From assembly GCF_900100305.1 (NCBI RefSeq), contig NZ_FNEY01000027.1:1-64000 (forward strand): DNA of 64,000 nucleotides, read 5' to 3'. Shown here piece after piece: positions 26,866 through 38,378 of this stretch. Positions within the stretch are counted from its first letter, which is position 1, and every line of letters begins with the position of its first letter. The notes beneath the pieces were generated by a model that was not told where the DNA came from, ran no database searches, and saw only the letters and a list, made by a program, of their open reading frames with translations. A program made the translations under genes and the position numbers. This DNA is from Paracidovorax citrulli (GTDB taxonomy: Bacteria; Pseudomonadota; Gammaproteobacteria; Burkholderiales; Burkholderiaceae_C).

Positions 26866-28344
26866 ATGGCGTCCACCATCAACACCAACATCAGCTCGCT
26901 CACCGCCCAGCGCAACCTGAGCCTGAGCCAGTCGTCGCTCAACACCTCCATCCAGCGCCTGTCCTCCGGCCTGCGCATCAACAGCGCCAAGGACGATGCC
27001 GCCGGCCTGGCCATCTCGGAGCGGTTCACCTCGCAGATCCGCGGGATGAACCAGGCGGCGCGCAATGCCAACGACGGCATTTCGCTGTCCCAGGTGGCGG
27101 AAAGTGCGCTGGCGGGCGCAGGGAACATCCTGCAGCGGGTGCGCGAACTGTCGGTGCAATCGGCCAACGCCACCAATTCGGCAGGTGACCGCAAGGCCAT
27201 CCAGGCCGAAGTCGGCCAGCTGCTGTCCGAACTCGACCGCATCGCCGGCACCACGGAATTCAACGGCCAGAAACTGCTGGACGGCTCCTTCGGCTCGGCC
27301 ACCTTCCAGGTCGGCGCCAACGCCAACCAGACCATCACGGCCACCACGGGCAACTTCCGCACCATGAACTATGGTGCCCAGCTGACGGCCTCCGCCACCG
27401 GCGCGGCCACCACCGGCGCCACCGCCGGCTCGGCAGGCGCCGCCGCCGGCACGGTGGTCATCGGCGGGCTGCAGACCAAGACCGTCAACGTCGCGGCTGC
27501 CAGCACGGCCGCCGACATCGCCGCCGCCGTCAACGCGGTGGCCGACTCCACCGGCGTGACGGCCGCGGCCCGCAACGTCTCGGAACTCAAGCTCACCGGC
27601 AATGGTTCTTATTCTCTGGCGGTCAAGGGCGAGAACAGCACCGCGGCCAACGTGACGTTCAACGTCTCGTCGAACAGTTCGGCCGCAGGGCTGGCCGAAG
27701 CCGTGAAGGCCTTCAACGACGTGTCCTCGCAGACCGGCATCACCGCCAAGCTCAACAGCGACAACACCGGCCTGATCCTGACCAACGAGTCGGGCAAGGA
27801 CATCAACATCGCCAACGGCGCCAGCAGCGCCGCGGGCATCACGCTGGCCTCGCAGGACGCCGTCCAGACGTTGTCCTCGGGCAACCTGACCTTCACGGCC
27901 GCCACGACGGCCGCCACCGGCGTCACCGTGGCTGCGCGCGGCACGGTGGAATACAACTCCGACAAGGGCTACACCGTGAGCGGCACGGGCGACACCATGA
28001 CGAACGCCGCGGCCACCAGTTCCAACATGAAGTCCGTGAGCACCATCGACGTGTCGACGGTGGACGGTTCCACGCGCGCCTTGAAGATCATCGATGCCGC
28101 GCTCGCGGCCGTCAACGGCCAGCGTGCGAACTTCGGCGCGTTGCAATCACGGTTCGAAACCGCCATCGCCAACCTGAATACCTCGTCCGAGAACATGTCC
28201 GCCTCGCGCAGCCGCATCCAGGACGCGGACTTCGCGGCCGAAACCGCCAACCTGTCGCGCTCGCAGATCCTGCAGCAGGCCGGCACGGCGATGGTGGCCC
28301 AGGCCAACCAGCTGCCCCAGGGCGTGCTGTCCCTGCTGAAGTAA
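26866..28344 (+). CDS. fliC: Flagellin (copy 2)
   Basis: This second 492-residue flagellin is oriented away from copy 1 and starts at the ATG at 26866 with GCAGGAG upstream. It is colinear with copy 1. By eye I count about 56 substitutions, clustered at residues 74-88, 330-350, 395-415 and 448-458, with D0 ends almost unchanged and the flg22-type region identical. No recognisable sigma28 promoter precedes it and no strong terminator follows. Transcription could therefore read into the glycan island starting at 28420. A different expression level or condition from copy 1 is an inference from the promoter difference. Confidence 0.96.
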
Positions 28345-28419
28345 GCGGGTGAAGCGCAGCGCCCCATAATGCCGTGAGCGCAAGGAAGACACGCGGCCCG
28401 CACCCTTGCCGACCATTGC

Positions 28420-29133
28420 ATGCACACCACCGCCGTCATCGTTCAGTCGAACTACCTGCCCTGGAAGGGGTACTTCGACCTGATGCGCCAGGCAGACGTC
28501 TTCGTTCTGTACGACGACGTGCAATATACGCGGCGAGACTGGCGCAATCGCAATGTCATCAAGACGCCTCAAGGGTTGCATTGGCTCACGGTGCCGGTTC
28601 AAAGCAAGGGGCAGTACCACCAGGACATCGACAAAATCACTGTTTCATCGTCCAGGTGGATCGAGAAGCACTGGAATACCATCGCGATGAGCTACGGAAA
28701 ATCCCCCGGATTTTCCGAATACGGACCGGCCGTGCGGTCCATGATGCATGCGTGCGCCGACCATACGCTGTTATCGGAAATCAATGGCCGGCTAATCCGG
28801 GGCGTGGCGGAACTCCTTGGCATCCGCACGCCCATCGTCCAGTCATCCGCCTATGGGAAGGTTTCCGGAAAAACGGAAAACCTCATCCATCTTTGCAAGG
28901 CCGTCGGCGCGACCCGATATCTGTCGGGGCCTGCGGCAAGGAGTTATCTCGACGCCGGACTCTTCTCCCACGCCGGCATCGAGCTGAGCTATATGGATTA
29001 CTCCGGATATCCGGAGTATGGACAGCCCCACGGTCCCTTCACCCATTTCGTGAGCATCGTCGACCTATTGATGAGCACGGGAGAGAAAGCGGCCAGCTAT
29101 CTCATCCAGCAGGAATCTTCGCGTGTCTCGTGA
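28420..29133 (+). CDS. WbqC-like family protein
   Basis: The 237-residue protein has the WbqC-family signature at the N-terminus (IVQSNYLPWKGYFDLMRQADVFVLYDDVQYTRRDWRNRN) and, near the C-terminus, SGYPEYGQPHGPFTHFVSIVDLLMSTG. WbqC-type proteins occur in O-antigen and other surface-glycan clusters; their reaction is not well defined, and an acyl- or amino-acid transfer role on sugars has been considered. It is the first gene of the island after flagellin 2 (75-base gap) and overlaps the next gene by 11 bases. Base composition is visibly less GC-rich than the flagellar genes. Confidence 0.85.
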   Translation: MHTTAVIVQSNYLPWKGYFDLMRQADVFVLYDDVQYTRRDWRNRNVIKTPQGLHWLTVPVQSKGQYHQDIDKITVSSSRWIEKHWNTIAMSYGKSPGFSEYGPAVRSMMHACADHTLLSEINGRLIRGVAELLGIRTPIVQSSAYGKVSGKTENLIHLCKAVGATRYLSGPAARSYLDAGLFSHAGIELSYMDYSGYPEYGQPHGPFTHFVSIVDLLMSTGEKAASYLIQQESSRVS

Positions 29134-29779
29134 CGAAAACGCTTTGCACGAAGGGATCGCGCTCTACTATGAGCGTCGACTGCATGAGCACGGGCCGACC
29201 CCCCGAGGTGTGGACTGGAACGGAGCGGAATCCCAGCAGCTTCGCTTCGCCCAGCTGACGCAGATACTGCAAGCCGGCCCCGGTCCGGACAGTGATCGTC
29301 CGACGACCCTGAACGATCTGGGCTGCGGTTATGGAGCCCTGCTCGACTTCCTTGTGGAGACAGGCTGGAACATCGACTACGAGGGTATCGACCTGTCCGC
29401 CTCGATGGTGCAGGCAGCCCAGGCACGCCACGCAGGCGTCGCGAACGCCCGCTTCCGGGTCGGTGCAGCCTGTACCCGCATGGCCGACTACAGCGTGGCC
29501 AGCGGACTGTTCAATGTCCGTCAGGAGGTGCCTGTTCCGTTGTGGGAGAAATTCATCCATGACACGCTGGACGATCTGGACCGCAGCAGCCGCCGTGGAT
29601 TTGCGTTCAATTGCCTCACCTCATACTCGGACGCAGAGAAGATGAAGCCCCATCTGCACTATTGCGTACCCGAAGAGATCTTTCGTCACTGCAAAACCCG
29701 ATTCTCACGCCATGTCGCACTGCTGCACGACTATGGGCTCTACGAATTCACCATCCTGGTACGCAAGCAGGTCGGGTGA
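29123..29779 (+). CDS. Class I SAM-dependent methyltransferase
   Basis: This 218-residue protein starts at a GTG overlapping the WbqC-like gene, with AGGA upstream. The SAM motif I is LNDLGCGYGALLDFL (about 72-86), followed by the acidic residue in YEGIDLSASMV. The C-terminal part is a typical seven-strand methyltransferase fold with HDYGLYEFTILVRK. The substrate is not evident; its place in the cluster suggests O- or N-methylation of the flagellar glycan. Translationally coupled to both neighbours. Confidence 0.85.
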   Translation: MSRDENALHEGIALYYERRLHEHGPTPRGVDWNGAESQQLRFAQLTQILQAGPGPDSDRPTTLNDLGCGYGALLDFLVETGWNIDYEGIDLSASMVQAAQARHAGVANARFRVGAACTRMADYSVASGLFNVRQEVPVPLWEKFIHDTLDDLDRSSRRGFAFNCLTSYSDAEKMKPHLHYCVPEEIFRHCKTRFSRHVALLHDYGLYEFTILVRKQVG

Positions 29780-30600
29780 TGCCGCCGCCAACCGATACAC
29801 ACAGCATGAACACCGCTCCATCCCCTGAAAAAAACCAGAAGCACGAGTCTTCGGTACTGACGCACTCCGCGATCGACGGCATTCAGGCCCGGGATGAACT
29901 CTTCGCCCTGATGAATGGCTACGCGAGCACACCCGAGGAAAAAGAACGGTCGCTAGGGCTGTTCCTTCGGGGCTCCCTTCTGGCCCGCATTCTTGCGGTG
30001 GCGCACATCTATCAGCAAATCGTGGATATTCCCGGCATCATTTTCGATATCGGCACCTGGCGCGGGCAGACCGCGGTGCTGTGCGAAAACTTTCGTGCCA
30101 TCTACGAGCCATTGCACTTCAATCGCCGGATCGTCTGTTTCGATACTTTCGAGGGGTACGCCGGTTTTGGCGACCAAGACCGCGCGACTGCGCTGCACAA
30201 GGAGGGCACTTACTCGGTGGGTGGAACCGCCTATGCCGACTACCTGGCTCACCTGCTACAGGTCCATGAGCGCGCCAATGCCATGGGGCACAACAACGGC
30301 AAGCACCAGGTCATCGCCGGAGACTGCCGGGAAACCATTCCCGCATTTTTCGGAGACCATCCCAACGAGATCCTGAGTCTGGCGTTTTTCGACGTCAATG
30401 CGCTCGCACCCACACGCGAGGCGCTGGACCAAGTCTGGAAGCGGCTGGCCCCCGGGGGCATCGTGGCGTTCTGGCAATTGACCCGGGCAGGCATGCGCGC
30501 CGAAGGGCAGGCCTATGCCGCGGACCTCCTCAACCAGCATCGACACACATTGCATCGTGCGCCCACGTATCCCAGCCTTTGCTATGCCCGCAAGATGTGA
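29779..30600 (+). CDS. TylF/MycF-like sugar O-methyltransferase
   Basis: This protein is 273 residues if started at the ATG at 29779, which overlaps the previous stop (TGATG); an ATG at 29806 is an alternative. It has a SAM motif (IIFDIGTWRGQTAVLCENF), then FDTFEGYAGFGDQD, and later LAFFDVNALAPTREALDQVWKRLAPGGIVAFWQL. This pattern (a DTFEGF-like motif plus metal-site acidic residues) resembles TylF/MycF-type methyltransferases acting on deoxysugar hydroxyls. It is a second methyltransferase beside the one at 29123, so the glycan may carry two methyl groups (inference). Confidence 0.75.
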   Translation: MPPPTDTHSMNTAPSPEKNQKHESSVLTHSAIDGIQARDELFALMNGYASTPEEKERSLGLFLRGSLLARILAVAHIYQQIVDIPGIIFDIGTWRGQTAVLCENFRAIYEPLHFNRRIVCFDTFEGYAGFGDQDRATALHKEGTYSVGGTAYADYLAHLLQVHERANAMGHNNGKHQVIAGDCRETIPAFFGDHPNEILSLAFFDVNALAPTREALDQVWKRLAPGGIVAFWQLTRAGMRAEGQAYAADLLNQHRHTLHRAPTYPSLCYARKM

Positions 30601-30631
30601 GCGTGCTTTTCCATTTTCGTAGAGCAGCCAT

Positions 30632-32086
30632 ATGCATACCGTCGTCATAGGAAACGGCATCGTCGCCCTCTCCACGGCTTTCAGGCTCATGCAACGGCTG
30701 GGGCCCCATGACCAGATCACCTTGATAGGTCCGCGGGCCCGGCCCGGCTCCGCTACCCAGGCGGCTGCGGCAATGCTCAATTCATTCGCGGAAATCGAAG
30801 CGGGAGGTCTGGAACACCCCGTCGATCTCTTCCGCTTCGAGCTCAGCCATCTGGCCACCCGCATGTGGCCCCGGTTCGAGCGCGAGATCATCGATCAGGC
30901 GGGAGGGTGCCTGCCCGCCGACTGCGGGCACTGTACCGGCTTTGGCGGAGGCGGCTGCATCGATACGGGCACATTCGTCATCAATAACAATGCAGCAGAC
31001 GATCTGGACGATGAAAATTTCGATGCCATCGCCAAGGCCCTGGACGATTTCAGCGAACCCTACGAATACGTCTCGCCTCGCAGCATTCCCAATTACCGGC
31101 CACACCAGGGGCAACGCGCCGTGCGAGCCCTATTCATACCGGGCGAAGGCTGGGTCAATCCGCGGCTGATGCTGGAAAAGCTCGACATGGTGGTCGGGCG
31201 CCATCCGCGGGTGAGATTCCTGGAGGCCAGTGCACAACGTCTCCAGCACGGCCATGGATCCATCACCGGCGTGGTCCTGAACAATGCGCAGGTGGTGGAG
31301 GCGGACAAGTTCGTGCTGGCGACAGGGGCATCTGCCTGGGACCTGCTGCAGCGCAGCGACCTGGACATCGGCATGCAGCGGGTGTTCTATGGCGTCGGCG
31401 TATCTCTGGAAATCGAGAGCCCCGACAATCCCCATACCCACTGCATTCGCACACCGAACCGAGGGCTGGCGTGCGGCGTCTACAGCGCCCCCTACTTCAC
31501 AGGCCCCCGTCGGCCGACCGACCACATTCTCATAGGGGCCAGCAGTTTCACATCGGCGACCCCCGTGGAGCACGCCCGCATCGGCAGCGTGGAGTCCCTG
31601 TTGAAATCCGCCATGGAGCAGATCAACCGCGATTTCTACCGGGCCTCCCTGGTCCGTGTGAACGTGGGCTGGCGGCCCAGCAGCCAGGACGGATATCCCA
31701 TGGTAGGGCCGACGGCGCTTCACAATCTCATCGTCGCCACGGGGACCAAGCGCGACGGCTTCCACATGGCACCGGTCCTCTCCCAGTATCTGGCGGGACT
31801 CGTTCATGGCGATCCCCTCCCCGACGAGCGCTGGAACTGGCTGGCCCCCGATCGCGCGCCGCTGCGGTTGCTGACACGCGAGCAGGCGATCGCCAAAGCG
31901 GTGCGGCACCAGATCAGCGCGGCCTATCAACATGGTTTCGTGCCTGCGAAGAGCCGCATGCCGGACCAACTGGCCGACACCTACCGCAGCCAGCTGGAAC
32001 AATTGCATGACCAGGTGGGCGCCATCGACTGGGGGATTCCGCCCGATATGCTCGACATGTACCGGTACGGCCACGCAAAGGCCTGA
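30632..32086 (+). CDS. FAD-dependent oxidoreductase of the DAO family
   Basis: The 484-residue protein has an N-terminal dinucleotide-binding motif (VVIGNGIVALSTAFRLM) and a C-terminal DAO motif (VGWRPSSQDGYPMVGP ... NLIVATGTKRDGFHMAPVLSQYLAGL), the hallmarks of D-amino-acid-oxidase/glycine-oxidase-like flavoproteins. A Cys/Gly-rich stretch (ADCGHCTGFGGGGC, about 97-110) is unusual. No membrane segment. In the cluster it may oxidise an amine or hydroxyl on a sugar or on an amino-acid substituent before the aminotransferase acts. This role is inference; the family assignment is firm. Confidence 0.8.
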   Translation: MHTVVIGNGIVALSTAFRLMQRLGPHDQITLIGPRARPGSATQAAAAMLNSFAEIEAGGLEHPVDLFRFELSHLATRMWPRFEREIIDQAGGCLPADCGHCTGFGGGGCIDTGTFVINNNAADDLDDENFDAIAKALDDFSEPYEYVSPRSIPNYRPHQGQRAVRALFIPGEGWVNPRLMLEKLDMVVGRHPRVRFLEASAQRLQHGHGSITGVVLNNAQVVEADKFVLATGASAWDLLQRSDLDIGMQRVFYGVGVSLEIESPDNPHTHCIRTPNRGLACGVYSAPYFTGPRRPTDHILIGASSFTSATPVEHARIGSVESLLKSAMEQINRDFYRASLVRVNVGWRPSSQDGYPMVGPTALHNLIVATGTKRDGFHMAPVLSQYLAGLVHGDPLPDERWNWLAPDRAPLRLLTREQAIAKAVRHQISAAYQHGFVPAKSRMPDQLADTYRSQLEQLHDQVGAIDWGIPPDMLDMYRYGHAKA

Positions 32087-32119
32087 ACCGGGTCCCGCCC
32101 CTCACGGAAGAGCCCAGCC

Positions 32120-33274
32120 ATGGACAACTCCAGCATCCCTTTCGGCCAGCCGTTCATCGTCGGCAAGGAGCTTTTCTACATCGCCCAGGCAGTCATGAAC
32201 GGCTCCATCGCCGGCGACGGGGATTTCACGCGCAAATGCCAGGAGTGGCTAGAGGTCCATCTGTCGTGCAAGAAGGCCCTTCTGACCACGTCCTGCACCA
32301 CGGCGCTCGAAATGGCGGCCATCCTGACAGATGTGCAACCGGGCGACGAAATCATCATGCCGTCGTTCACGTTCGTCTCGACGGCGAATGCCTTCGTGCT
32401 GCGCGGCGGCGTTCCGGTCTTCGTCGATATCCGCGCCGACACGCTGAATCTGGATGAGCGTCTGGTGGAGGCGCTCATCACGCCGCGCACCAAGGCGGTC
32501 GTGGCCGTGCATTACGCAGGGTTTCCCTGCGCCATGGACAAGCTCAAGGCCCTGTGCCGCCAGCACGGCCTGCGGCTCATCGAAGACGCCGCACAAGCCA
32601 TCCTGACGCACGACGAAGGCCAAGCGTTGGGCACGATCGGCGACATGGGTTGCCTCAGCTTCCATGAAACCAAGAACGTCATCTGCGGCGAGGGCGGGGC
32701 CCTGCTCATCAACGACCCGGCGCTGATCGAGCGCGCCGAAATCATCTGGCAGAAAGGAACCAACCGCAAAGCCTTCTTCAGAGGCGAAGTGGACAGGTAT
32801 TCCTGGGTCGACATAGGCTCGTCGTTCCTGCCGAATGAACTCACGGCCGCGTTCCTCTACGCACAACTGGAACACGCCAAGCGAATCAACACCCACAGGC
32901 GCGTGTTGTATGAGAAGTACCTCCAGTTGCTCGGACCGCTGGAGCAGGAAGGTTTTCTCCAACTGCCGAAGACCGCTGCGCAAGTGGCCAACGGCCATAT
33001 CTTCTACATCCTGTGCACCTCTCTGAAGGAGCGCACCGCCTTGACCGGATTTCTGCGCGCACAGGGTATCGGCGCAGTGTTCCATTATGTTCCGCTGCAT
33101 GATTCGCCGGCCGGCCTGCGTCATGGCCGTGGCGGGCACCTGCCGGTCACCACCGATATTTCACGGAGGTTGCTGCGCCTGCCCATATATTCCAGCATGA
33201 CCAGCGACGATGTCCGGCGCGTCGCTGGCGCCGTGAAAAGCTTCTATCAGCCACACTCCCGCACCGGGGCGTGA
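32120..33274 (+). CDS. DegT/DnrJ/EryC1/StrS-type sugar aminotransferase (WecE/RffA-like)
   Basis: The 384-residue PLP enzyme has TTSCTTALEMAAIL, PSFTFVSTANAFVLRGGVPVFVDIR, the cofactor aspartate in LIEDAAQA and the PLP lysine in SFHETKNVICGEGGALL. It ends with a C-terminal HYVPLHDS segment typical of this family. Closest in pattern to dTDP-4-amino-4,6-dideoxygalactose transaminase (WecE/RffA). It converts a 4-keto-6-deoxy nucleotide sugar to the amino sugar. No nucleotidyltransferase or 4,6-dehydratase is in the window, so the keto sugar must come from genes elsewhere. Confidence 0.88.
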   Translation: MDNSSIPFGQPFIVGKELFYIAQAVMNGSIAGDGDFTRKCQEWLEVHLSCKKALLTTSCTTALEMAAILTDVQPGDEIIMPSFTFVSTANAFVLRGGVPVFVDIRADTLNLDERLVEALITPRTKAVVAVHYAGFPCAMDKLKALCRQHGLRLIEDAAQAILTHDEGQALGTIGDMGCLSFHETKNVICGEGGALLINDPALIERAEIIWQKGTNRKAFFRGEVDRYSWVDIGSSFLPNELTAAFLYAQLEHAKRINTHRRVLYEKYLQLLGPLEQEGFLQLPKTAAQVANGHIFYILCTSLKERTALTGFLRAQGIGAVFHYVPLHDSPAGLRHGRGGHLPVTTDISRRLLRLPIYSSMTSDDVRRVAGAVKSFYQPHSRTGA

Positions 33275-33289
33275 AGCCCTCCCAGCCCC

Positions 33290-36200
33290 ATGAAACCAGT
33301 GCAGTTCATCCGGGATAACCACGCCCGCTTTCTCCACCTGCTGGAACACGTCCGTCAACTCGTCCAAGCACGGCGGTGGCAAGATGCCCTGGATGCCGCC
33401 GCAGAGTGCGCCTCCCACGCCTGGCTGCAGCACAGCGGGATCTTCGCCTCTGCGGAACTCGAATCGCTGGTCGCGCAGGCTGGAGCGCATCTTTCCGAAC
33501 GCGCGCCGGGCCGTCCACCCGCGTCCGGCGGCGGAGGCCGCCGCCGGCTGCTCACCATCATGACCAGCGCCCACTCGGTGGGTGGACACAGCCGCATCGC
33601 CTGGCGCTGGTGCCAACTGGACGCCGGGTCGGAGCACACGCTCGTATTGACCCGACAGGCAGGAGCGGCGATTCCCGAGCAGTTGCTCGAACTGCAGGCT
33701 GCCGGCCGGCTCACGATCGTCCTGCTGGAGCAATCTGGCTGGAACGAACGCATCCAGGCCCTGCAAGCGCTTCTGGCACAGGCCGACTACGCGATATTGC
33801 TGACCCATCCCCACGACGTGCTGCCCTGCGCGGCGGTACCGGCCATGGAAAACCCGCCGCCGGTCATCGCCGTCGATCACGCCTCGCACGTGTTCTGGCT
33901 GGGCGTTTCCATCACGCAGGTGGCCCTCAACACGGCGACCTACCTGCTGGAAGGGCGCCGCGGCATAGGCAGGCAGCACATCGGGGGCGCCTTGCTGCCG
34001 ATGAATTTCGAGCACCTGGACCGCGGGCACGCGGCAGCCTCGGCGGTGAAATCCGCCTACGGGATCCCGCAGGAAGCAACGCTGCTGCTGTCCGCAGCGT
34101 CGGGCTACAAATTCTGGCCCATCGAAGGCGTCAGCCTCGCGGCCATGATCGGGCCCGTACTCGCCCGCCATCCACACGTCCATCTCCTGGCAGTGGGCGT
34201 GGGCACCACACGCCCATGGGAAGAGTTGCAGGCGCGGTTCCCGGCGCAAGTCCACCTGCAGGGCTACCTGTCGGAATCGGAACTGGTGGCCTGCTACCAC
34301 GCGTGCGACATCTACGTGGATTCGCTGCCGCTGTCCTCGCCCACGACGCTGCTCGAAGCGGCCGCATGCGGCAAACCCATCGTGCGTTTCGCGCCACAGG
34401 ACTGGAGGGGTACCGGTTTCTCGCTGGAGTTCGACTGCATTCCACCAGCGCTCTACCTGTGGACCACACCACCGGCCTACGAAGCCGACCTGCACCGCTT
34501 GATCACCGACCCGGATTTCCGCCAATGGCGCGGAGAATTCGGCCGCACAGCCGTCCGCCTGCACTATTCAGATGCCACCTTCCTCTACAGCATGGAGGCG
34601 ATCTACGAACAGGCCGACCGACTGGAGCCCATCCAGCCCGCCCCCACGGCACTGGACTGGAGATGCGATCGCGTCGATCTGCTGCTGGCCCAGCTCGCCC
34701 ACAACATGGCGCTGGACCGTCAGCCACCTGCTGTGGCGCAAGCGACGTCGAGCTACACGCTGCAAGACTGGTTGGCCCAGCGAACACCCAACGCTGCGCA
34801 GCAGCGATTGATCGATAGCCACTTGGCTGCGGATGCACCGCCCAGCCCGCAAGTAGCGATTGCAGTGCTCTGCGACGGCTTGAACACTGCAGCGCGCGAG
34901 GCCACCCTTCAAAGCCTGGCCGACCAGCCCTACCGGCACATCACGGTATCCGTCATCGCAACGCCGCCGGGCGAGCGCGTGGCGGCGCTGAATGAATGGG
35001 CTGCGCATAGCGATGCGCAGTGGCTCTGCACGGTGGAGGCGGGCGCACATTTCATGCACACCGGCCTGCAGGCACTGGCCCTGGAATTGCAGCATGCTTC
35101 CGACTGCCGGTGTGTCTATGCCGACGAAATCGTGCACGCTGGAGAAGGCCAGTGGGGAACCCTGTTCCGGCCCGACATCAACCTGGATCTGCTGCTCTCG
35201 TGTCCCGAGGGCATGGCACGGCACTGGCTGTACAGGCGGGACGTGTTCCTGGAGGCAGGAGGTTTCGATCCGGATTTTGCAGAGGCGCCGGAATTCGATC
35301 TGGCACTGCGATTGATCGCAGCCGACGGCATCGGAGCCATCGGCCACGTGAGCGAACCACTGCTCACGTCCGCCCTGCCCCGGTTGGCCAATCGCCAGCA
35401 CGAGATCGCGGCCATCGAGAGACATCTGCGTTCCAGGGGCTATGGGCATGCGTCGGTGGATGCCAGCCTGCCTGGACGCTATCGCATCCATTACGGCCAC
35501 GAAGCCAAGCCTCTCGTGTCGATCATCATTCCCACCAAGGATCAGTTCGCCATGGTGGAGCGATGCGTCAGTTCCCTGCTGGAGAAGACCTCCTACCAGA
35601 ACTACGAAATCATCCTGGTGGACAACGGTAGCACGGATCCGTCGGCCTGCGCCTGGATCGGCGGGCTGGAAGCGATGGACGATCCGCGCATCCGTGTGCT
35701 GCGCTATCCGCATCCGTTCAACTATTCCGCGATCAACAACGCGGCGGCGCGCATGGCGCGAGGCGAGTACCTCATCCTGCTGAACAACGACACGGCCACG
35801 CTGCGCGGCGACTGGCTGGACGCCATGCTCAACCATGCGCAGCGGCCCGAGGTCGGCATCGTGGGAGCCAAGCTGCTGCACGCCGATGGCACCATCCAGC
35901 ACGGCGGCGTCGTGCTGGGCCTGCGCGGCCCGGCAGACCACCCCTTCATAGGCCTGCCGGCCGATGCGCCCGGCTATATGAATCGCCTGGAAGTGGACCA
36001 GAACTACAGCGCGGTCACCGCCGCCTGCCTGATGATCCGCCGCTCGGTCTACGAAGAGGTCGGCGGGCTGGACGAAGAAGCCTTCAAGGTGTCGTACAAC
36101 GATGTGGACCTGTGCCTCAAGGTACGGCAGGCCGGCTACCTCATCGTCTGGACGCCCCACGCCGTCGTGCTGCACGAAGGCAGCGTGAGCCAGAAGTCCG

Positions 36201-37369
36201 TGGACGCGGCCACGCAGGAGGCCAAGCGGGCACGCTTCATGGGCGAGCAGGACGCCATGTACCGGAAGTGGCTGCCCGTCGTGGCACGTGACCCGGCCTA
36301 CAACCCCAACCTCTCGCTGCACGGCACCGGCTTCGACGTGGAGACCGACGCTGCCATCAACCGCCGGCCCCTGCCATGGCGTCCCCAGCCCGTCGTGCTG
36401 GCGCTGGCCGCCGACCATTCCGGCTGCGGCCACTACCGGGTGATCGAGCCGGTGCGTGCCATGCACGGCAGCGGCATCGCCGATGCACGGTTCGCCGGGC
36501 GCTACTTCACGCCCGAGGAGCTGCATCGGCTGCAACCCGACACCCTGGTGCTGCAGCGCCAGGTGAATGAAGAGCAGCTCCAGCTCATCCAGCGCATCAA
36601 GCGCCTGTGCCCGGTGTTCATGGTGGCCGAACTGGACGACTATCTGCCCAATCTGCCTCTCAAGAATACGCACCGCCAGGAGATGCCCAGGGACGTGCTG
36701 CGGCAGCTGCGCCGCTCCGTCGGCATGATGGACCGCTTCGTCGTCTCGACCGACGCCCTGGCCGAAGCCCTCAAGGGTACCCACCCGGACATGCGGGTGG
36801 TGCAGAACCGCCTGCCGCCGCGCTGGTGGCGCGGACTGCAGAGCAGCCGCCAGACGGGCGGGCGGCCGCGCGTGGGCTGGGCGGGCGGCATCAGCCACCA
36901 GGGAGACCTGGAACTGATCACCGATGTCGTGAAGGAGCTGCACCGCGAGGTGGACTGGATCTTCTTCGGGATGTGCCCGGACCGCATCAAGCCCTACGTG
37001 CGGGAATACCACGGCCCGGTGCCGATCGAGCGCTACCCGGCCATGCTCGCCAGCCTGAACCTGGACCTGGCGCTCGCCCCGCTGGAACAGAACCTCTTCA
37101 ATGAATGCAAGAGCAACCTGCGGCTGCTGGAGTACGGAGCGTGCGGCTATCCCGTGATCGCCAGCGATGCGCGGCCCTACCAATGCGGGCTGCCGGTCAC
37201 CTTGGTCAAGAACCGGTTCAAGGACTGGGTGGATGCCATCCGCGCCCACGTGCAGGACCCGGATGCCGCCGCGCGCTCAGGCGATGCGCTGAAGGCAGCG
37301 GTCGAGCGCGACTGGATGCTCGAGGGAGCCCATCTGGAGAATTGGCTGCGGGCCTGGATGCCGGAGTGA
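33290..37369 (+). CDS. Giant multi-module glycosyltransferase
   Basis: The 1359-residue protein is built from several transferase modules. Residues about 90-445 are a GT-B/GT4-like module (SESELVACYHACDIYVDSLPLSSPTTLLEAAACGKPIV). Residues about 515-690 look like a degenerate GT2 module (VAIAVLCDGL ... FRPDINLDLLLSC). Residues about 740-990 are an intact GT2 module (VSIIIPTKDQFAMVERCV, LVDNGSTDP, LLNNDTATLRGDW, SYNDVDLCLKVRQAGY). Residues about 1030-1359 form a second GT-B-like module (SNLRLLEYGACGYPVIAS). The first about 85 residues are helical. Likely cytoplasmic, assembling or attaching a short glycan; flagellin as acceptor is inferred from location. The two GT-A modules resemble O-antigen-type fused transferases. 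Confidence 0.85.
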   Translation: MKPVQFIRDNHARFLHLLEHVRQLVQARRWQDALDAAAECASHAWLQHSGIFASAELESLVAQAGAHLSERAPGRPPASGGGGRRRLLTIMTSAHSVGGHSRIAWRWCQLDAGSEHTLVLTRQAGAAIPEQLLELQAAGRLTIVLLEQSGWNERIQALQALLAQADYAILLTHPHDVLPCAAVPAMENPPPVIAVDHASHVFWLGVSITQVALNTATYLLEGRRGIGRQHIGGALLPMNFEHLDRGHAAASAVKSAYGIPQEATLLLSAASGYKFWPIEGVSLAAMIGPVLARHPHVHLLAVGVGTTRPWEELQARFPAQVHLQGYLSESELVACYHACDIYVDSLPLSSPTTLLEAAACGKPIVRFAPQDWRGTGFSLEFDCIPPALYLWTTPPAYEADLHRLITDPDFRQWRGEFGRTAVRLHYSDATFLYSMEAIYEQADRLEPIQPAPTALDWRCDRVDLLLAQLAHNMALDRQPPAVAQATSSYTLQDWLAQRTPNAAQQRLIDSHLAADAPPSPQVAIAVLCDGLNTAAREATLQSLADQPYRHITVSVIATPPGERVAALNEWAAHSDAQWLCTVEAGAHFMHTGLQALALELQHASDCRCVYADEIVHAGEGQWGTLFRPDINLDLLLSCPEGMARHWLYRRDVFLEAGGFDPDFAEAPEFDLALRLIAADGIGAIGHVSEPLLTSALPRLANRQHEIAAIERHLRSRGYGHASVDASLPGRYRIHYGHEAKPLVSIIIPTKDQFAMVERCVSSLLEKTSYQNYEIILVDNGSTDPSACAWIGGLEAMDDPRIRVLRYPHPFNYSAINNAAARMARGEYLILLNNDTATLRGDWLDAMLNHAQRPEVGIVGAKLLHADGTIQHGGVVLGLRGPADHPFIGLPADAPGYMNRLEVDQNYSAVTAACLMIRRSVYEEVGGLDEEAFKVSYNDVDLCLKVRQAGYLIVWTPHAVVLHEGSVSQKSVDAATQEAKRARFMGEQDAMYRKWLPVVARDPAYNPNLSLHGTGFDVETDAAINRRPLPWRPQPVVLALAADHSGCGHYRVIEPVRAMHGSGIADARFAGRYFTPEELHRLQPDTLVLQRQVNEEQLQLIQRIKRLCPVFMVAELDDYLPNLPLKNTHRQEMPRDVLRQLRRSVGMMDRFVVSTDALAEALKGTHPDMRVVQNRLPPRWWRGLQSSRQTGGRPRVGWAGGISHQGDLELITDVVKELHREVDWIFFGMCPDRIKPYVREYHGPVPIERYPAMLASLNLDLALAPLEQNLFNECKSNLRLLEYGACGYPVIASDARPYQCGLPVTLVKNRFKDWVDAIRAHVQDPDAAARSGDALKAAVERDWMLEGAHLENWLRAWMPE

Positions 37370-37517: not shown

Positions 37518-38378
37518 ATGTTCGTCATCATCGGTTACCTCGTCTGCCTGGGGTGCATCTTCGGGGTCTTCATCGCGCACGGCGGCAATATCTCCGTGGT
37601 GCTGCACGCCCTGCCGTTCGAGATCGTCACGATTCTGGGCGGTGCCCTGGGCGCCTTCGTAGTGAACAACCAGCCCAAGGTGCTGAAGGCCACGCTCAAG
37701 GCGCTGCCCATGGCGTTCAAGGGCTCCAAGTACACCAAGGCGCGTTACATGGAGCTGATGGCGATGCTCTACGAGATCCTGCAGAAGGCCCGCAAGGAAG
37801 GCCTGATGGCGATCGAGAAGGACGTGGAAGCGCCCCACGAGTCGGAAATCTTCAAGAAATACCCCACGGTGGGCACGGACCACCACGTGATCGAGTTCAC
37901 CACCGACTACCTGCGCATGATGGTGTCGGGCAACCTGAACGCGCACGAGATCGAATCGCTCATGGACAGCGAGATCGAAACCCACCACCAGGAAGCCCAT
38001 GCCCCCGTGGCGGCCCTGGCCCGGCTGGCCGGCGCCCTGCCCGCCTTCGGCATCGTGGCCGCCGTGCTCGGGGTGGTGAACACCATGGGCTCGGTGGGCC
38101 AGCCGCCCTCGGTGCTGGGCGGGATGATCGGCTCGGCCCTGGTGGGCACGTTCCTCGGCATTCTGCTCGCCTACGGTGTGGTGGAGCCGCTGGGCGGCCT
38201 CGTGGAGCAGAAGCTCGAGGACGCCGCCAAGGAACTCCAGTGCATCAAGACCACTCTGCTGGCCAGCATGCAGGGCTACAACCCCGCCACGGCCATCGAA
38301 TTCGGCCGCAAGGTGCTCTTCTCGGGCGACCGGCCCAGCTTCTCCGAACTGGAAAGCCACGTGAAGGGCAAGAAGTAA
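37518..38378 (+). CDS. motA: Flagellar stator protein MotA
   Basis: The 286-residue proton-channel stator subunit has four membrane segments (starting MFVIIGYLVCLGCIFGVFIAHGG; pair at ALPAFGIVAAVLGVVNTMG and GGMIGSALVGTFLGILLAYGVV) and a large cytoplasmic loop containing VIEFTTDYLRMMVSGNLNAHEIESLMD. Length and motifs match the long MotA type of proteobacteria. It is followed by motB 27 bases downstream. Confidence 0.97.
   Translation: MFVIIGYLVCLGCIFGVFIAHGGNISVVLHALPFEIVTILGGALGAFVVNNQPKVLKATLKALPMAFKGSKYTKARYMELMAMLYEILQKARKEGLMAIEKDVEAPHESEIFKKYPTVGTDHHVIEFTTDYLRMMVSGNLNAHEIESLMDSEIETHHQEAHAPVAALARLAGALPAFGIVAAVLGVVNTMGSVGQPPSVLGGMIGSALVGTFLGILLAYGVVEPLGGLVEQKLEDAAKELQCIKTTLLASMQGYNPATAIEFGRKVLFSGDRPSFSELESHVKGKK

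Follow-up and report, generated by a model that had tools for sequence, protein, structure and literature searches.

What do the six genes transcribed in one direction between the second flagellin gene, fliC2 (26866-28344), and motA (37518-38378) make in Paracidovorax citrulli, and where does their product go? The DNA that we analysed, called the window here, is the stretch of 64,000 nucleotides at positions 1 to 64,000 of contig NZ_FNEY01000027.1 (our contig C43; G, C and L label genomes, contigs and fetched loci). Our work tentatively suggests that these genes form an exchangeable cassette for a flagellin glycan, whose enzymes produce a terminal sugar from thymidine diphosphate (dTDP)-4-amino-4,6-dideoxygalactose (dTDP-Fuc4N) and attach it. 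The sugar would be glycylated, amidine-modified and O-methylated; we favour this reading while putting it a little below an even chance.

Probable cassette exchange at the flagellin locus

The evidence comes from DNA upstream of motA in the other 16 species of the genus; in three of them a contig end cuts the fetched stretch short. The flavoenzyme, the WbqC protein and the methyltransferases MT2 and MT3 of the window had no match in any of the 16. Six species (L077, L078, L079, L080, L089 and L090) combine a flagellin with a different aminotransferase and the same C-terminal part of the giant glycosyltransferase (GT), and the other ten are arranged differently. DNA homology to these six loci ends at 28344-28346, within two bases after the fliC2 stop codon, and in blastn it sets in again within the GT gene, at 35101-35155 in L077, L078, L079, L080 and L089 and at 35762 in L090; similarity of the GT protein begins earlier, near residue 437-491. 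Residues 736-1359 of this protein are 97% identical in L078 (G002) and 67% identical in L090 (G016), residues 481-735 are 51% and 40% identical, respectively, and residues 1-480 have no match in either locus; in the four remaining sister loci that share the GT core, tblastn gave no match to residues 1-436. In Acidovorax sp. NO-1, where the module of the window is present, the identity over residues 1-480 is 59%. Genome comparison thus makes it very probable that the cassette has been exchanged together with the N-terminal domain of the GT, and it is reasonably likely that this domain adds the special sugar and that the remainder of the protein builds a shared core. Sugar genes and a GT next to flagellin that change in this way between close relatives fit a flagellin glycosylation island. 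A solved relative of the N-terminal domain, 5djs at 0.0057, was a weak match and was not used.

In G002, the same slot (L078:8173-15859) holds a DegT aminotransferase, an ATP-grasp protein, a methyltransferase and a different N-terminal domain on the same GT. The end of the giant GT of Acidovorax sp. NO-1 matches in another frame (L011:17382-17873), due to a frameshift or a sequencing error.

The composition and layout of the locus (Table 1) largely bear out the first-pass annotation, which had been made from the letters alone. All six genes are present, and profile matches confirm the families that it had named, a WbqC protein (PF08889, 1e-76, 257.9 bits against a gathering cut-off of 21.3), two methyltransferases, a flavoenzyme of the DAO family (PF01266, 2e-33), a WecE/RffA-type aminotransferase and a giant GT of 1359 residues with a GT4-like, a GT2 and a third GT-like stretch. 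The overlap that it had seen among the first three genes amounts to 11 bases between the WbqC and MT2 genes (28420-29133 and 29123-29779), followed by a TGATG stop-start junction between MT2 and MT3 (29777-29781), which makes 29779 the likely start of MT3. The lower GC content holds for the five genes from WbqC to the aminotransferase (0.611 as compared to 0.670 for the window, a value equally low in only one of 296 sliding 4.8-kb windows), but not for the giant GT gene (0.66). Promoter-like and terminator-like sites at the locus did not exceed the level in shuffled sequences.

Table 1. Coordinates of the cassette and its flanking flagellin gene in the window
Feature	Position	Strand	Basis and remarks
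Flagellin 2 (fliC2)	26866..28344	+	PF00669/PF00700; presumed acceptor; left homology arm of the cassette
WbqC family protein	28420..29133	+	Modelled BshC fold; predicted amino-acid:amino-sugar ligase
MT2, class I S-adenosylmethionine-dependent methyltransferase	29123..29779	+	PF13649, 8e-8; optional in the module
MT3, TylF-type O-methyltransferase	29779..30600	+	Nearest solved relative CalS11, phmmer 6.8e-35
Orf1-like flavin adenine dinucleotide enzyme	30632..32086	+	DAO fold and C-terminal helical bundle
dTDP-Fuc4N transaminase (predicted)	32120..33274	+	WecE/RffA type, NF008687 and TIGR02379
Giant GT, N-terminal domain (residues 1-480)	33290..34729	+	Within the exchanged segment
Giant GT, middle and C-terminal part	34730..37369	+	PF00535, PF13524; GT2 and a further GT-like domain
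Exchanged segment (predicted)	28347..35154	.	Between the arms fliC2 and 3' part of the GT gene

The predicted sugar and its modification

The first-pass annotation had predicted a methylated amino-deoxy sugar at this flagellin locus, and the gene families support this. The aminotransferase of the window scores 569.3 bits with the WecE/RffA equivalog NF008687 (cut-off 375) and 519.4 bits with TIGR02379 (cut-off 434.85), and these cut-offs are passed by all 12 aminotransferases of the module, i. e. those of the window and of 11 loci from other genomes, so that by family assignment the product is dTDP-4-amino-4,6-dideoxygalactose. The earlier statement that dehydratase and nucleotidyltransferase genes are missing is true of contig C43, on which neither rmlA nor rmlB had a match at an E value of 0.001, but not of the genome: rmlB (502.6 bits, cut-off 365.1) and, close to it, rmlA (511.6 bits, cut-off 360.65) lie on contig C30. 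Moreover, rmlA exceeds its cut-off inside the fetched loci L002, L006, L010 and L012, in L002 and L012 together with rmlB. With these two genes and the WecE-type aminotransferase the route to the sugar nucleotide is complete, and the curated family cut-offs make dTDP-Fuc4N a highly probable product. A pathway to pseudaminic or legionaminic acid, already rejected in the first-pass annotation, does not fit, as the aminotransferase stays well below the cut-offs of PseC (205.9 bits, cut-off 423.5) and of the LegC type (182.6 bits, cut-off 420).

In the pathway that we propose, housekeeping RmlA and RmlB would supply dTDP-4-keto-6-deoxyglucose, from which the WecE-type enzyme would make dTDP-4-amino-4,6-dideoxygalactose. 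The WbqC protein with its BshC fold would join an amino acid, probably glycine, to the 4-amine, and the Orf1-like flavoenzyme would oxidise a second glycine and pass a glycine-derived imino carbon (formimidoyl or iminoacetyl) to the amine. MT3 and perhaps MT2 would O-methylate the sugar, and the N-terminal domain of the giant GT would add it to a glycan built on flagellin by the conserved rest of this protein. Our inferences concern the acyl group being glycine, the formation of an amidine, the sequence of the steps, the task of the N-terminal domain and flagellin as the acceptor. Among these, flagellin as the acceptor is quite probable, a glycine-derived amidine is about evenly balanced, and a glycyl linker is somewhat more doubtful than that.

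For the WbqC protein, the first-pass annotation had recognised the family and missed the fold: 219 of the 237 residues of its structural model superpose on the bacillithiol synthase BshC. The reaction of BshC links cysteine to an amino sugar, and the fold of WbqC suggests amino-acid ligation, although the WbqC protein is a core of 237 residues as compared to the 540 residues of the BshC chain. The assignment of MT3 as a nucleotide-sugar O-methyltransferase is supported by its nearest solved relative, the TDP-rhamnose 3'-O-methyltransferase CalS11, aligned over MT3 residues 28-269; unlike CalS11, MT3 would act on a Fuc4N derivative. Close relatives of MT3 were found only in the own genome among 340, and three further matches were distant. 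The family scans and locus queries with MT3 carried about 35 extra residues before the start, and the search for solved relatives used the start at 29779; the alignment row of the L004 WbqC protein includes three residues before the first methionine. MT2 had no solved relative at 0.001.

The flavoenzyme is central to the proposed chemistry. The first-pass annotation had correctly placed it in the DAO family, and had missed that its nearest relative is an N-formimidoyl synthase rather than a plain oxidase: by sequence and by fold, the closest solved protein is Orf1 of BD-12 biosynthesis, which bears the PDB name N-formimidoyl fortimicin A synthase and attaches an N-formimidoyl group derived from glycine to an amine. 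For Orf1, the comparison relied on part of the chain of the E426Q mutant (7XYL), with the wild-type E426 taken from the paper, and the fold comparisons for the flavoenzyme and for WbqC were made through a second look at Foldseek's top-ranked chains. Several features link the module enzymes to Orf1. Cys281, the residue of the N-O-S adduct in Orf1, is a cysteine in all 12 module members, and position 281 is Tyr, His or a gap (the latter in L028) in 14 ThiO-like controls. Like it, A280 and H419 are part of the transfer half or tunnel in Orf1, and all three residues are invariant in the module and absent from the 14 controls, in the case of H419 because the controls end before it; the Orf1 tunnel residues L124, A280 and H419 are kept in the module enzyme. 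The model also contains the C-terminal bundle that helps to form the acceptor site of Orf1 and is absent from glycine oxidases. At the glycine site, the enzymes retain R342, R368 and M57, and so do most of the controls. The controls are 14 of 27 loci (L027-L053), the other 13 having been left out because of a wrong frame or a shortened sequence, and two of the 14 (L028 and L031) pass the ThiO cut-off; loci L054-L056 did not enter the comparison. An identity of the DAO gene as ThiO is rejected on the basis of its length, of cysteine 281 and of its score with the ThiO equivalog, 110 bits with a cut-off of 250.8.

Flavoenzyme matches at 0.001 occur in five of 17 genomes of the genus, and the four besides the own genome are Orf1-like proteins of 31-32% identity located elsewhere (L013-L016), which keep Cys281, His284 and Tyr294 and have position 426 changed. 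Around two of these genes (L093, L094) no other window gene was matched. In genome G825, an Orf1-like enzyme (L092:9547-11058) keeps all of C281, E426, H284, Y294 and F316 in a stretch with a GC content of 0.397 and with none of the sugar genes of the module. A plasmid of Streptomyces finlayi carries an Orf1-like gene (L129:7896-9353) with 47% identity to Orf1; its neighbours include a RidA-family gene and a non-ribosomal peptide synthetase, and together they may form a cluster for an amidine product.

The module in other genomes

A scan of the genome-contig collection with six exact peptide patterns, which gives a lower bound, found the flavoenzyme at 11 loci: in Neorhizobium, two Dechloromonas, two genomes filed as Bordetella, Acidovorax sp. 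NO-1, Herbaspirillum, Thiobacillus and three organisms without a genus name. A WecE-type aminotransferase is near the flavoenzyme in all 11, MT3 lies directly upstream of it in ten (not in L007), and WbqC is present in nine; the two loci without it, L009 and L010, are on contigs that start inside MT3. A relative of MT2 is present in three of the 11. The module, of which the window carries the flagellar form, is mobile and rare: in the family sample (399 genomes at 1e-50), the order sample (399 genomes at 1e-60) and the phylum sample (271 genomes at 1e-60) the flavoenzyme of the module was found in the own genome only, and in the class sample in two of 369, the second being a more distant relative (316 as compared to 881 bits) with no match to other window genes within 19.9 kb. 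These samples overlap, and few first-look candidates per genome were scored. A location of the module on plasmids was rejected, as no plasmid matched at 1e-40.

The first-pass annotation had expected its link to flagellin to fail if the same genes turned up routinely elsewhere, and they do so in part: five of the 11 loci contain a flagellin (L003, L005, L006, L008 and L011) and six have none in the fetched DNA. Thus, the module is not flagellum-specific. Away from flagellin, its core consists of the flavoenzyme and the WecE-type aminotransferase, usually with a TylF-type methyltransferase and WbqC. In L006, a protein of 1603 residues with TPR, GT41, FkbM methyltransferase and GT56-like stretches lies between flagellin and the module (L006:2391-7202). 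Large proteins of 616 and 669 residues without a Pfam match at 1e-5 are encoded at L002:14233-16083 and L009:3992-6001, respectively.

The WbqC family itself is present in 16 of 143 genomes of a class sample. For 14 of these, up to 8 kb on each side were fetched, some cut by contig ends; the own genome was left out, as was another in which a stop codon interrupts the match. None of the 14 stretches has a match to the flavoenzyme or MT3, and 12 have a DegT aminotransferase. Three of them (L111, L112 and L113) combine a WecE-like aminotransferase (55-56% identical), WbqC, an MT2 relative (53-56% identity) and a relative of the L002 GT2. From these comparisons, MT3 and the flavoenzyme appear to be a joint addition to a more general theme of WbqC and aminotransferase. 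In nine loci, the pairwise identities of MT3 co-vary with those of the flavoenzyme (Spearman 0.83, 36 non-independent pairs); the corresponding values are 0.24 for the aminotransferase and 0.12 for WbqC. L007, L009 and L010 stood outside this test due to missing or cut genes.

Competing explanations and known systems

A number of observations speak against the pathway proposed above. The GTs of L003, L005 and L008, where the module lies beside flagellin, match in the middle and C-terminal parts and show no match to the N-terminal domain; this domain does not always travel with the module, and our overall confidence was slightly lowered for this reason, from just under even to where it stands. 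(The large GT of L006 is of another kind and matches over just 46 residues.) Flagellin is out of view in six of the 11 loci, although the contigs of L009 and L010 begin inside the module. The fold match of WbqC to BshC comes at 9% identity, and sequence searches led from WbqC to no solved structure, with only matches at E values of 0.11-0.12 from a single protein and none from the alignment. The flavoenzyme is about 30% identical to Orf1; CmiS2, which the PDB names a glycine oxidase, equals Orf1 in Z score (42.3), over 364 residues, and residues 431-484 of the model have low ten-residue confidence means (40-72). Position 426 is Q in all 12 module members and E in Orf1, whose E426Q mutant keeps glycine oxidation and forms no product; E426 is present in the relatives from S. 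finlayi, Agrobacterium, S. avidinii and L092, but not in the four relatives from the genus. H284 is replaced by Y and Y294 by L in all 12 members, whereas both residues are kept in Orf1 and in all eight other Orf1-like proteins examined. A278 is likewise replaced by G in all 12; E312, E313 and F316 differ too, yet they also vary among the relatives of Orf1. Position 316 is Arg in 11 of the 12, and this R316 is a candidate to take the place of E426. We do not assign the enzyme to the Orf1 family proper, as it lacks two defining features of that family, Glu426 and the His284-Tyr294 pair.

The changes at E426, H284 and Y294 would fit a flavoenzyme that is a plain oxidase of glycine, an amino sugar or an aminoacyl group, so that no amidine would be formed and the sugar would be an O-methylated N-aminoacylated Fuc4N; the retention of R342, R368 and M57, shared with most ThiO-like controls, agrees with this as well. 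The invariant C281, A280 and H419, absent from the controls, and the predicted acceptor-site bundle argue for group transfer instead, it is hard to see what purpose a plain glycine oxidase would serve among sugar genes, and we regard this alternative as rather unlikely. Slightly less likely still is a kasugamycin-like route in which the flavoenzyme puts formimidoyl or iminoacetyl directly on the 4-amine of dTDP-Fuc4N and WbqC does something else. KasN is proposed to form carboxyformimidoyl-kasugamine (PMC8869731), and in Orf1 the changes F316A and E312A make the iminoacetyl product the major one on glycylthricin, with both residues missing from the module members. However, WbqC looks like a part of the pathway, since it is present in nine of 11 loci with both exceptions cut by contig ends, and its fold suggests amino-acid ligation. 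Improbable in our view is a sugar mainly for lipopolysaccharide or exopolysaccharide, with the position beside flagellin being incidental. The six loci without flagellin in the fetched DNA and the related GT2 proteins in L002, L004 and L007, of which that of L002 is nearest to PgfS and ArnC-like transferases, yet under their cut-offs, would agree with it. Against it, flagellin accompanies the module in the window, L003, L005, L006, L008 and L011 together with three kinds of large GT protein, and in six of the 16 sister species this slot is filled by other aminotransferase cassettes on the same GT core. The amidine-modified flagellin sugar is our preferred, albeit tentative, reading.

In its layout, this cassette resembles the viosamine island that PMC3927599 describes from Pseudomonas syringae (vioA, vioM, vioT, vioS, vioB, vioR and acp); what is new is the proposed chemistry. 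There, and by prediction here too, the 4-amine of a dTDP-4-amino-4,6-dideoxy sugar is modified, the sugar is O-methylated and becomes the terminal sugar of the flagellin glycan, and a very large transferase, in P. syringae VioT with 1173 residues, adds it (PMC3927599). The differences are the WecE-type (galacto) aminotransferase in place of VioA, the predicted N-modification by WbqC and the flavoenzyme in place of the acyl route of VioS, VioB, VioR and ACP, and the position between fliC2 and motA with exchange of a part of the GT gene. With Orf1, the flavoenzyme shares the modelled DAO fold and C-terminal bundle, the glycine-binding arginines, catalytic Cys281, L124, A280 and H419; it differs in E426, H284, Y294, A278, E312, E313 and F316 and in being part of a sugar cassette rather than an antibiotic cluster. 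PMC8869731 describes KasN as a glycine oxidase that is 42% similar to fms14, and we liken it by description and not by sequence: a glycine-derived imino group on an amino sugar is proposed there, with kasugamine in place of Fuc4N. In the openly licensed PMC literature, flagellin glyc- together with glycine oxidase was not found, and formimidoyl together with O-antigen occurred in one paper; judged by titles and the beginnings of abstracts, no paper with flagellin and formimidoyl was on glycans and none on WbqC dealt with its function. An Acidovorax flagellin paper (PMC8268093) mentions glycosylation once, within the reference list.

Taken at its fullest, our proposal, which we hold with less than even confidence, is that the flagella bear N-formimidoyl-glycyl (or iminoacetyl) O-methyl-Fuc4N, an amidine sugar. 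Two enzymes would act in its synthesis, WbqC as an amino-acid ligase and a flavoenzyme that works through a cysteine adduct; the latter would be of a type found in the biosynthesis of aminoglycoside-type antibiotics, but with its active site rewired. If this is true, glycine-to-amidine chemistry of the antibiotic type would occur in a surface glycan, the WbqC family would obtain a function, and a positively charged flagellin sugar could alter the recognition by hosts and phages. Two questions become directly testable, i. e. the role of WbqC and whether Glu426 is indispensable in Orf1-type flavoenzymes. Moreover, a giant transferase with a fixed core and a changing tip within the genus offers a way to deduce flagellin glycan types from genome sequences.

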